NCBI GenBank assembly: GCA_001797745.1
Contig: MGQF01000074.1
Coordinates: 37,071 to 69,797 of the forward strand
DNA: 32,727 bases
Source: Deltaproteobacteria bacterium RBG_13_52_11
GTDB lineage: Bacteria; Desulfobacterota; B13-G15; RBG-16-54-18
Direction of reading: 5' to 3'
Part shown: piece by piece, positions 6,777 to 17,739 of the stretch
Numbering within the stretch: position 1 is the first letter of the stretch
Layout of the letters: each line of letters starts with the position of its first letter
Position numbers and translations under genes: made by a program
Notes under the pieces: model-generated
Database searches by the model: none
Told to the model about the DNA's origin: nothing
Seen by the model: only the letters and a program-made list of their open reading frames with translations

Positions 6777-7328
6777 TTACTCCTTGACGGATATGGTGAC
6801 ACTTTCATAGCCACGCTTTACCAGATTTTCATTTTTCTTCAGTAATTTCCCATCGAAGTTCATGTCCAAGCTCGATATGACAGATTCCAACGTGACCCAT
6901 CCCGTGACCTTTGCTATCACCCCGAGCATGCAGGTATTGACGATTGCCCTTCCAATCTCATCAAGGGCCAATGCCGTTGCATCGACAAGACCGAGAACGT
7001 TCAGCCCTTGAGGCCAGCTCTCCAGCGTTTGCTTTGGCGTGTTTATGACTGCTACCCCATCACCTTTGAGGCCATTGAAAATCGCCTGCGATCTTCCTAT
7101 GAAGGGGTCTAAGACCATAATACAGTCCGGTTCATAGATCTGATGGGTCTCTCTGATCGGTTTTTCATCAAACCGAAGGAAGGCCGCTACCGGTGCCCCT
7201 CGTCTTTCAGCCCCGAAGGTTGGGAATGATGAAGCATATTTGCCCTCAAGGACAAAGGCGTATGCGAGCATTTCCGCACCCATCACCACACCTTGTCCTC
7301 CCCTGCCATGAAACCGTATCTCCTTCAT
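6777..7328 (-). CDS. padE: 2-oxoacid oxidoreductase gamma subunit (PadE-like)
   Basis: MKEIRFHGRGGQGVVMGAEMLAYAFVLEGKYASSFPTFGAERRGAPVAAFLRFDEKPIR: classic PorG/POR gamma signature. Confidence 0.9.
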   Translation of the reverse strand: MKEIRFHGRGGQGVVMGAEMLAYAFVLEGKYASSFPTFGAERRGAPVAAFLRFDEKPIRETHQIYEPDCIMVLDPFIGRSQAIFNGLKGDGVAVINTPKQTLESWPQGLNVLGLVDATALALDEIGRAIVNTCMLGVIAKVTGWVTLESVISSLDMNFDGKLLKKNENLVKRGYESVTISVKE

Positions 7329-14310: not shown

Positions 14311-14396
14311 TGTCAAGTAAAAAATGAACCATGTGTCTTTGAAATTACGGAGGGAACCACTGCGTCCGGTGGATCGGCTTGTTCCGTGGCCCTGCT

Positions 14397-15119
14397 TTAC
14401 CACGGTGTTTCTCCTTCTTCACTGAAGAATTTTCCAGTCGGTCCATTCTCGTCCAGTGTCGCATACTTCACGATTACAGCAGCGCCTTGAGCAACAGGCT
14501 TTGTACCGGTGTAATTATTAAACTCCGTTGCGGTGTAGCCTGGATTTACCGAGTTGACCTTGAATTTCGAGTCCTTAAGTTCGGTTGCCAACGCAACCGT
14601 GTAAGCATTCAGTGCGGTTTTTGAAGGTCCGTAGGCAGCCCTTTCTATTTTGTAATGTTTCCAACCGGTGTCGCTGCGCAACGTTAAAGAACCTATGTCG
14701 CTCGTTACATTTACAATGACTGGAACTTGCGACTTCTTCAAGAGGGGGATGAATTCCTGAGTGACTTGTATGACACCAAAAAAATTCGTTTCGAAGACTT
14801 CTCTCAGTACCTCGATTGGTATGTGCGACGCACGTTGCGGGACTTCTCCCCTCATTCCGGCGTTATTGATCAACACATCGAGTTTTGTAGCCTTGGTTTC
14901 GAGGATTCGCCTTGCTTTCTTGATTGAGTCAAGATTTGTAACATCAAGCTCCAGGGCGTCGACGTTACGCAGCCCGCTGCCCTGCAGCTCCTGTTTTGCT
15001 CTTTGCCCCTTTTCTTTGTCTCTACTGCCGATGTACACGAAGTAATCGAGTTGAGCCAATTGTCTTGCTGTCTCGAAGCCGATGCCTCTGTTCGCCCCTG
15101 TTATGAACACAGTTTTCAT
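14397..15119 (-). CDS. SDR-family oxidoreductase (carbonyl-reductase-like)
   Basis: VFITGANRGIGFETARQLA (TGxxxGxG), DVLINNAGMRGE (NNAG), YGPSKTALNAYT (YxxxK). Confidence 0.93.
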   Translation of the reverse strand: MKTVFITGANRGIGFETARQLAQLDYFVYIGSRDKEKGQRAKQELQGSGLRNVDALELDVTNLDSIKKARRILETKATKLDVLINNAGMRGEVPQRASHIPIEVLREVFETNFFGVIQVTQEFIPLLKKSQVPVIVNVTSDIGSLTLRSDTGWKHYKIERAAYGPSKTALNAYTVALATELKDSKFKVNSVNPGYTATEFNNYTGTKPVAQGAAVIVKYATLDENGPTGKFFSEEGETPW

Positions 15120-15206
15120 TAACTAACCCTCCCGGTGAATAAGGTTTCGTTTAGCCATGGTCCTAAAATCAGCGGAAGTTATTGCTGCGTCCCTCGTGAG
15201 CGATAT

Positions 15207-15226
15207 GTTAGGCGGATCCGCCTAAC
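15207..15226. repeat. Perfect 20-bp palindrome GTTAGGCGGATCCGCCTAAC overlapping the stop of the SRPBCC gene; probable attC-core remnant
   Basis: Palindrome read directly; it contains canonical integron core-site heptamers GTTAGGC and GCCTAAC. Confidence 0.6.
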
Positions 15227-15656
15227 TGCGCCGTGGCTTGGACTTTCCTTTCCCTTGTTCCCTACGCCTCTTTAGATATTCCCTCCAAGGTGCCCAATAA
15301 TAAATCTCCCAACCCTGACTCACGCCGGCAAAGTCGTGATCCGCGACATTGACATGGACGAGTTCGATTCGTGTCCCACGCCCTTCAGGCCAAAACGTCA
15401 AGATCAGTGTCGAATCAATGTCACTGGCCTTCCAGCCCGCAGATCTCCAGGACTGCACGATCAGTCGCTTCGGTACAACCTGAAGGATTGTTCCCTGAAG
15501 CCCGTTGTCGAAGGCCTGAAACCGCGCCCCGGCATGTGCCCCGATCGAAACAGGTGCACCCGTAATAGCGGCATGCAACGCTGGATCGAGATACATGTCA
15601 AAGAGCTCATCGGGTGATGCCGGCAATGACGCTGCGAGATGGATCGTGCGAGGCAT
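15222..15656 (-). CDS. SRPBCC/AHSA1-like (START-fold) domain protein
   Basis: MPRTIHLAASLPASPDELFDMYLDPALHAAITGAPVSIGAHAGARFQAFDNGLQGTILQVVPKRLIVQSWRSAGW...STLILTFWPEGRGTRIELVHVNV. GGAGGAACGCCT precedes the internal ATG at 15656. Confidence 0.88.
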   Translation of the reverse strand: MPRTIHLAASLPASPDELFDMYLDPALHAAITGAPVSIGAHAGARFQAFDNGLQGTILQVVPKRLIVQSWRSAGWKASDIDSTLILTFWPEGRGTRIELVHVNVADHDFAGVSQGWEIYYWAPWREYLKRRREQGKGKSKPRRS

Positions 15657-15746
15657 AGGCGTTCCTCCTTCTTCTTTGATTTGAACGTTCTCCCAACCCA
15701 TAGGCAGATCTCACTGCCGCCTCATGGTCGAGTTGAGTCCCGCCAA

Positions 15747-15830
15747 GGGCGCAACGTTCAAGGTAAGGGGCTGGCTGGAAGCGGGCGGAGCCCGCTGTAA
15801 GCCAGTCCCACCTGACCGCAATGTTAGGGG
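15747..15830 (-). other. attC-like recombination site (putative)
   Basis: Minus strand: CCCCTAACATTGCGGTCAGGTGGGACTGGCTTACAGCGGGCTCCGCCCGCTTCCAGCCAGCCCCTTACCTTGAACGTTGCGCCC. Outer AAC...GTT, imperfect inner arms (AGGTGGGACTGGCT / AGCCAGCCCCTTACCT), central hairpin GCGGGC-GGA-GCCCGC. Starts next to the stop of the 80-aa ORF. Confidence 0.6.
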
Positions 15831-16073
15831 TCATAGTGCACCATCCGGCTTGGTTCGCCGACTAAGCCTTCTACCGAACCAAAGCAAGGCTACTCCCACG
15901 ACACACAGAAAGAGCGTCAATATGGCCAATATTTCAACGTCAGCAAACATCAACCCTGGACCAAACCTGATTCGCTCATTCAGAGAAATTGCCGCGGCTA
16001 TCGCTGTAAAAACAGCCAATAGCAACGTCAATACTCCAATGACAGTGAGCGTATTTGCCAGAAAATGCTTCAT
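15831..16073 (-). CDS. Small two-TM membrane protein, unknown function
   Basis: MKHFLANTLTVIGVLTLLLAVFTAIAAAISLNERIRFGPGLMFADVEILAILTLFLCVVGVALLWFGRRLSRRTKPDGAL: two hydrophobic helices and a basic tail. Confidence 0.7.
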   Translation of the reverse strand: MKHFLANTLTVIGVLTLLLAVFTAIAAAISLNERIRFGPGLMFADVEILAILTLFLCVVGVALLWFGRRLSRRTKPDGAL

Positions 16074-16171
16074 CGTCAGGGAGACACCTAATGACCGAGC
16101 TGAGCGAAATCCGAGTAATGGAGAAAGATAAATATTTCGGAATGAAGCGGATTTCCGCTCGAGTCCCGCCC

Positions 16172-16231
16172 GGCGCGAACGCTGCGGATCAGGCGAGGCT
16201 ATTTGCCGTCGCCTGCATCCGGCTTGTTAGC
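16172..16231 (-). other. attC-like recombination site (putative)
   Basis: Minus strand: GCTAACAAGCCGGATGCAGGCGACGGCAAATAGCCTCGCCTGATCCGCAGCGTTCGCGCC. Arms CGGATGCAGGCGA / TCGCCTGATCCG pair with exactly one extrahelical base; outer AAC/GTT. Begins in the stop codon of the lipoprotein gene. Confidence 0.65.
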
Positions 16232-16742
16232 TTCTCCTTTCTATTTTCCTGAACCTACCTGGATCTTTAAACAGATTTTTGTCGTCTTTGTGTTTTAAGA
16301 AGGCTTTCTTCAGTGCTTCACTATCTTTTAAGCCATCATCTACCAGGTTGGTGTTCAGTATCTTGATAATCAGTTCGCCATTGGACAATTGGTAAGATAC
16401 CACGTGGAATAGTTCTTTGTTATCTTTGTCGAGATTTCCCTCCGCAGTCCCGATAATTTGAATCTGGACACAAGGTACACCCCCGATCTTGACAGGGTAT
16501 GCACGAAAATACATTCCCTCCTTTCCGATGGGGTAATGGATTAGATACTCGGTGTCCGCGTACTTTAGAATCATCATCCTTTCATTTTGATCCAGCTGTT
16601 TACCTTTGTCAGGAACTAGTTCCCACAGCCCCAAAACAGATTGGTCGATGGAAATGCTATGTTCTTCAGTTAATGGCGCTTCATATTTACATCCGATAAG
16701 TAACAGAAGGAGGACGACTGGTAACAGGATGAGGTTCTTCAA
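16227..16742 (-). CDS. Putative lipoprotein of unknown function
   Basis: MKNLILLPVVLLLLLIGCKYEAPLTEEHS: signal peptide plus lipobox LLIGC; the rest has no family I can name. Confidence 0.75.
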   Translation of the reverse strand: MKNLILLPVVLLLLLIGCKYEAPLTEEHSISIDQSVLGLWELVPDKGKQLDQNERMMILKYADTEYLIHYPIGKEGMYFRAYPVKIGGVPCVQIQIIGTAEGNLDKDNKELFHVVSYQLSNGELIIKILNTNLVDDGLKDSEALKKAFLKHKDDKNLFKDPGRFRKIERRS

Positions 16743-16770
16743 ATTGATCTCTCCATTCTATTCAAAGCTA

Positions 16771-16932
16771 ACCCCCATGGCGCTGAGCGACTGCGACTGA
16801 GGCGGCAAGCCCGAAGGGCTTGAAGGTGACGGGAGCAGTGCGCTCCAGCGATTTGATGGGCGGCCTCTGTAAGAGGACGGCCAGCGGATCGCTGGGGTGA
16901 GCGCAAGCTCAGCGCCATGCGATGGGGCGAAC
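16771..16932. repeat. Structured GC-rich palindromic element (13-bp terminal inverted arms plus internal hairpins); possibly a large attC-like site
   Basis: CATGGCGCTGAGC (16776-16788) versus GCTCAGCGCCATG (16907-16919); internal hairpin CAAGCCC-GAA-GGGCTTG (about 16806-16822); CGCTCCAGCGAT versus ATCGCTGG..AGCG. Minus-strand 3' end reads GGGGGTTAGC just upstream of the lipoprotein ORF. Confidence 0.6.
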
Positions 16933-17013
16933 TCCCTCTGGATTTTTATGAGTCACTGCCCATTGTTTTTCTGTTATTGTGGGCAGTGACATCATATTAA
17001 TTTTCGCCCCATC
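16921..17013. repeat. Nested double inverted repeat
   Basis: Outer GATGGGGCGAA (16921-16931)/TTCGCCCCATC (17003-17013); inner GTCACTGCCCA (16952-16962)/TGGGCAGTGAC (16980-16990). Both 11-bp perfect. Confidence 0.85.
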
Positions 17014-17243
17014 AATTAATATACGAATTTCCTGTTTGCTCTTGACATGAGTACACTATAACACATGCTAAGATATGGATAGAAGAAAAATCCTTTAAAA
17101 ATCGGGGTGGTGAGAGCACACAACGTCGTATTTTTCGGTAATAAGGACTAAAAACGCAATTCGTATAATATGGGAAATCTGTCCAATACCGCCAGAGAAT
17201 CGTGAAGGTCGTCCCTTTTCTCTCCTCTTGTAACTTGTAAGAC

Positions 17244-17573
17244 TTACGCCACCTTTTCCAACTTAGACTTCAGCTGGTCCTTGGGCACCACCCCGGTGAT
17301 CCGTTCCACCACCTCTCCCTTCTTAAAGAGGATGAGGGTAGGGATGGCACGAATGCTAAAGAGGGGGGGTGTGGCGGGGTTTTCGTCCACATTCATCTTG
17401 GCGATCTTCACCCTTCCGCTGAACTCTTGGGCCAGTTCCTCCAGCACGGGGGCGACCATTTGGCAAGGTCCGCACCACGGTGCCCAAAAGTCCACCAGGA
17501 CAGGTATATCCGCCTTGGTGACCTCTTGCTCAAATTCTGCATCCTTGATATGTAAAATCGTTCCTTCAGCCAT
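17244..17573 (-). CDS. trxA: Thioredoxin
   Basis: VLVDFWAPWCGPCQMVAPVLEELAQEF ... KMNVDENPATPPLFSIRAIPTLILFKKGEVVERITG: WCGPC active site and cis-Pro. Start at MAEGT. Confidence 0.96.
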   Translation of the reverse strand: MAEGTILHIKDAEFEQEVTKADIPVLVDFWAPWCGPCQMVAPVLEELAQEFSGRVKIAKMNVDENPATPPLFSIRAIPTLILFKKGEVVERITGVVPKDQLKSKLEKVA

Positions 17574-17739
17574 GGATTGCACCTCCGCTTTTCTTTATTT
17601 AGTCATTAAAAACATATATATCATCCCCCCTTTTTTCAAGGTGCAATTTTTTGGCAGATCTCCCGCACCTCAAGCTATACAAGGGGCTTCGTTGACAATG
17701 GGTGAGACGGCATATATCATGCTTAGCAAGGGAGATAAT

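Follow-up and report, generated by a model that had tools for sequence, protein, structure and literature searches.

Integrons are usually described as one attI site beside one integrase gene (intI), and CALINs, arrays of at least two attC sites with no neighbouring intI, are regarded as their degraded leftovers; outside class 1 integrons, attI is poorly described and is not modelled (PMC9024848). An early survey found nearly a third of intI genes to be pseudogenes (PMC2426708). In Xanthomonas, intI at the fixed ilvD locus has been lost or truncated in some lineages that keep the cassette array, and CALINs lie elsewhere in the genome (PMC12444791). Cassettes that bear attI sites are known from mobile integrons (PMC12901181). 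How does a chromosomal array with no integrase gene of its own compare with these systems?

The window, the whole 32,727-nucleotide stretch analysed here (G000:C74:37071-69797), belongs to an uncultured deltaproteobacterium represented by a 2.54-Mb draft genome of 107 contigs (G000; 86% complete, 5.4% contamination). We are highly confident that it carries a genuine chromosomal integron, small, sedentary and decaying, from which intI has been lost, and its placement as a decayed member of a known integron kind is well supported. The cassette array spans 17012 to ~14351 and comprises five cassettes on the minus strand downstream of attI: one without an ORF, followed by those encoding a lipoprotein-like protein (ORF at 16227-16742), a two-TM 80-aa protein (TM80; 15831-16073), an AHSA1/SRPBCC protein (15222-15701; Pfam AHSA1) and an SDR protein (14397-15119; Pfam adh_short). 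A Pfam search placed nothing above the curated cut-off for the lipoprotein-like and 80-aa proteins. Two attC sites and two attC half sites lie between these same-strand ORFs, and attI heads the array in the correct orientation from 17013 onward. The initial annotation had proposed an integrase-less cassette array at 14345-16932 with three same-strand ORFs and probably a fourth, SDR; all four were confirmed on the minus strand, as was the lack of an IntI ORF in the window, and the array itself is supported by the two same-strand attC matches and two attC 5' halves. Its limits were too narrow, for the array reaches further right, and it had missed what lies at 16772-17193: the cassette without an ORF, attI and the stub of intI.

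What remains of the integration platform? The region at 17013-17193 is homologous to the upstream DNA and first codons of an intact intI in the relative G004 (G004:C29), the product of which scores 430 bits against TIGR02249. By this homology, attI and the leader region upstream of intI occupy 17013-17169 on the minus strand, with the crossover at 17013/17012. An intI stub lies next to them on the plus strand at 17170-17193, where the start codon and eight homologous codons (MGNLSNTA, matching the MGNMSNKA that begins the intact IntI) precede an in-frame stop at 17203. These eight codons are all that is left of intI beside attI, so the locus is not a complete integron. Expression of the cassettes would presumably proceed from the attI side; a scan of 16700-17600 for sigma-70 promoters and terminators found nothing.

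The neighbouring thioredoxin gene (17244-17582, minus strand) is a chromosomal flank common to relatives that have intI or attI beside it. A full intI adjoins the same gene in G004 and G006, which puts the platform at a conserved locus as befits a sedentary chromosomal integron, and in G002 the attI at this position is decayed and adjoins other genes. The synteny comparison covered this flank, the opposite end of the array being the IclR side, and the vertically conserved gene order that the initial annotation had named as evidence against an integron did not appear: same-flank loci of relatives carry intI, or attI with other cassettes. Loss of intI at a fixed locus with retention of the array is likewise seen at ilvD in Xanthomonas (PMC12444791). 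The platform adjoins a thioredoxin/radical-SAM gene pair, and its intI is deleted beyond codon 8. However, the thioredoxin-side intI of G004 and G006 differs in type from that of the stub (44-46% identity with the G004:C29 protein), and a simple deletion is therefore not enough to account for the history of the locus. The sole other trace of intI in G000 is a frameshifted, degraded fragment (G000:C76:9694-10108, L009) that is closest to this thioredoxin-side type and was thus apparently displaced by rearrangement; its stretch KEWGWFWLFP resembles what we take to be an IntI-specific patch. No intact integrase was found in the 86% complete genome, and the array is therefore probably immobile, or frozen, at present. 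As a separate observation, two intact integrases (L047:6270-7544 and L046:10174-11412) have ~100 extra N-terminal residues ahead of the TIGR02249 match, and one IntI clade is known to be ~120 residues longer (PMC2426708).

A CALIN is likewise characterized by several attC sites on one strand with no functional intI nearby, and with the attC model built here two or more attC sites are counted at the locus and intI is absent from their vicinity, although a formal IntegronFinder call may differ. Could the cassettes have gathered at a secondary chromosomal site that never lay beside an integrase? The lack of an intact intI in the window and in the examined sequence of G000 agrees with such an origin, but attI and the start of intI head the array and relatives have intI by the same gene, so that the homology of attI contradicts it and we consider it very improbable. 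The initial annotation used the term CALIN-like; with attI and the first codons of intI still at 17013-17193, however, the array is not a bare CALIN, and it differs further in that two of its attC sites survive as half sites.

Recognition of the attC sites proceeded from a symmetric finder, with which the window was not separable from Markov controls, to a strand-asymmetric finder and then to covariance models. Nine attC sites from outside the window went into model R1, in which covariation is seen at 14 of 19 pairs, above all 500 shuffles, and 44 such sites went into model R2; the training of both took sites from other contigs of G000 and none from the window. R1 recovers arrays adjoining intI genes, in which sites of the same array are nearly always on the same strand. 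Its best match in the window is the attC of cassette 2 at 16174-16232 on the minus strand (31.1 bits, E 2.1e-5), which reaches 40.6 bits and E 1e-8 with R2. This site is intact: folding of the bottom strand gives z=-3.5 and leaves one base of L extrahelical, the single unpaired base already described at 16172-16231, and the bulge pattern is nearly that of an attC by the intact intI in G004. The attC of cassette 3, with a degenerate L stem, lies on the same strand at 15749-15829 and folds at z=-3.2, in keeping with the hairpin proposed at 15747-15830; it scores E 1.8 with R1 and, at 15750-15829, 18.2 bits and E 0.01 with R2. No other match under E 1 was returned by the R2 scan of the window, and an Rfam scan gave no match. 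The top three window matches of R1 (16174-16232, 14351-14387 and 15749-15829) are all on the minus strand and all in gaps between genes. At least two same-strand attC matches had been proposed as support for the array, and an absence of covariance matches as evidence against it; a covariance model blind to the window finds two on the minus strand.

The ends of the last two cassettes are less complete. No full hairpin was found after AHSA1 (15119-15222, z=-0.67) or SDR (14340-14399, z=-0.30). Cassette 4 retains an attC 5' half (R''-L'') at 15188-15213 (minus strand, 16.4 bits), its 3' half being lost, and cassette 5 retains one at 14362-14387 (minus strand, 22.0 bits) with a box GTTCCCT at 14351-14357 that has no L' arm. 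Scored as a full attC, 14351-14387 gave 11.2 bits and E 1.3 with R1 and was absent with R2, and it was accordingly termed a half site. Among ~65,400 window positions scored with a 5'-half profile, 14362-14387 ranks first and 15188-15213 second. The Markov null has no score above 16 bits, and 136 kb of other DNA holds one match of 17.7 bits, which means that position supplies part of the case for the AHSA1 half site. The claim that each gene is followed by TAAC and a palindrome closing in GTT is accordingly true in part: the lipoprotein stop codon overlaps a TAAC, and those of TM80 and AHSA1 are followed by one within a few bases, but SDR has GGAAC, and the palindrome is complete for two of the four genes, AHSA1 and SDR having the attC 5' half only.

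A gene cluster of the ordinary kind, having unrelated palindromes or terminators between its genes, would also leave some sites without a hairpin, as is the case for two of the four here, and the integron reading has to be taken with a second attC at only E 0.01 and with those two half sites. Nevertheless, the array signal exceeds chance. The covariance match at E 1e-8 has its extrahelical base on the right strand and stands beside attI, and 16700-17600 contains no terminator-like site; a chance assemblage is scarcely credible.

The cassette boundaries follow from these sites. Cassette 1 (16772-17012, minus strand, 241 bp) has no ORF and a large attC (R'' at 16922-16932) in which a GAT/ATC core replaces GTT/AAC. 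In its circular form the 5' end pairs with R'' at 11 of 11 positions and the L arms at 13 of 13, and its hairpins fold at z=-7.9 and z=-7.4. Three attI loci of G004 carry the first 61 bp of this cassette in identical form. It was also observed that the G004 assembly breaks at each copy of the GAT-core ORF-less cassette (contig ends of L047, L058 and L059). Cassette 2 (16180-16771, minus strand, 592 bp) carries the lipoprotein-like ORF, and in its circular form the 5' end GTTAGCT pairs with R'' AGCTAAC at all seven positions. Across arrays beside intI, R'' agrees with the 5' end of the cassette that it belongs to at 2.9 of the 4 variable positions on average, perfectly in 12 of 20 cases, and with the in-place R' at 2.0 of 4. 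Each R' box thus belongs to the next cassette, and R' boxes that seem to deviate are to be expected. The suggestion that these boxes mark an unusual lineage therefore does not hold, since R'' pairs with its own 5' end and GTTCGxx boxes also occur by the intact intI in G004.

Cassette 3 (15755-16179, minus strand, 425 bp, TM80) has an attC site at either end, and its R'' mismatches its own 5' end; cassette 4 (15170-15754, minus strand, distal end approximate, AHSA1/SRPBCC) begins at an attC R' box and ends in a half site. Because both break the pairing rule, both may be hybrids. Cassette 5 (14351-15169, minus strand, ends approximate, SDR) is followed by its half site. Independently of these boundaries, window positions 16087-16192, the cassette 3 leader, recur at 77-90% identity on G000 contigs C89, C47 and C90, in the examined stretches of which no TM80 homologue was found. 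Each cassette would have entered as a circle at attI through IntI, which is expected to act at G^TT on attC folded from its bottom strand. Subsequent decay would have left the attC of cassette 2 intact, weakened that of cassette 3 and removed the 3' halves from those of cassettes 4 and 5.

The attI of the window is not confined to it. Six genera of the family (G000-G004 and G006) hold about 20 copies between them, most of which retain a stub of intI or lack it altogether (G000:C3, C7, C50, C72; G001:C3, C56, C65; G002:C9, C13; G003:C55; G004:C9, C16, C18, C29; G006:C7, C11, C38), and the same attI is present in the deltaproteobacterial MAGs RBG_16_54_11, CSMAG_1136 and Zod_Metabat.542. The copies are identical up to the crossover, with the same sharp edge at TATTAAWTG, and each joins a different cassette at G^TT, except four that share cassette 1. 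The repeat was considered as a MITE and rejected, since copies pass the inner inverted repeat into intI and their intI-side break points vary by locus, while the crossover is always the sharp edge. The attC sites are scattered as well, with 17 at E < 0.02 across 13 contigs of G000 and a similar distribution in relatives (n=17 in G004, for example), and additional attC clusters away from the main locus are again a feature shared with Xanthomonas (PMC12444791). Here, by comparison, attI copies and not attC clusters alone are dispersed, and they stand at the same loci across genera. Upstream flanks identify orthologous attI loci at atpC (G000:C3, G003:C55, G006:C38) and folE2 (G004:C18, G006:C7) and an orthologous intI locus (G004:C29 and G006:C11, the latter with an internal deletion in intI). 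At some loci attI recurs in tandem: attI - cassette - attI arrangements ~500 bp apart lie at L054:6436-6466 and 6939-6969 and at L118:1510-1656 and 2000-2147, the cassette terminating in attI and not in attC. Such tandems (G000:C72, G001:C3), and attI sites within arrays, recall the delta-attI-type cassettes of mobile integrons (PMC12901181), but here they are chromosomal and belong to uncultured deltaproteobacteria.

Does a lone attI then require an integrase beside it? We put forward, at somewhat below even odds, the hypothesis that the window belongs to a large set of attI outposts lacking an integrase nearby, whose cassettes are exchanged in trans by an IntI encoded elsewhere; this would supplement the decayed-integron explanation, not replace it. 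The identity of the copies up to the crossover, with differing cassettes beyond it, is consistent with such exchange. At atpC, G000 and G003 have an identical junction of operon terminator and truncated attI, yet carry different cassettes, a pattern in two draft genomes that suggests capture in trans. G006 has an intact intI at thioredoxin, and its contigs C7 and C38 carry attI sites that lack intI, each joined to a cassette that terminates in attC. On the other hand, every locus may originally have possessed an intI, as G006:C11 retains both ends of one; stub lengths vary from 0 to 26 codons; the atpC argument is based on two MAGs; and attI of this type may not be a substrate for the integrases. 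On balance it is a tentative but serious proposal that within the family attI spread by duplication over numerous chromosomal loci, leaving intI behind, that these outposts gained and lost cassettes in trans, a single integrase serving a multitude of small arrays at separate places, and that one recurrent ORF-less cassette has a GAT core in place of GTT. Dispersed attI sites would be a new variant, and they were not encountered in a literature search of partial coverage, which is weak evidence of novelty.

The window provides a clean example of integron decay in steps. Unlike the usual arrangement of one attI by one intI, attI copies are here dispersed and kept across genera with differing cassettes. 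If this arrangement is confirmed, arrays filed as CALINs may hold attI sites missed by annotation, because attI is not modelled outside class 1 (PMC9024848), and one integrase can supply several chromosomal sites in trans.
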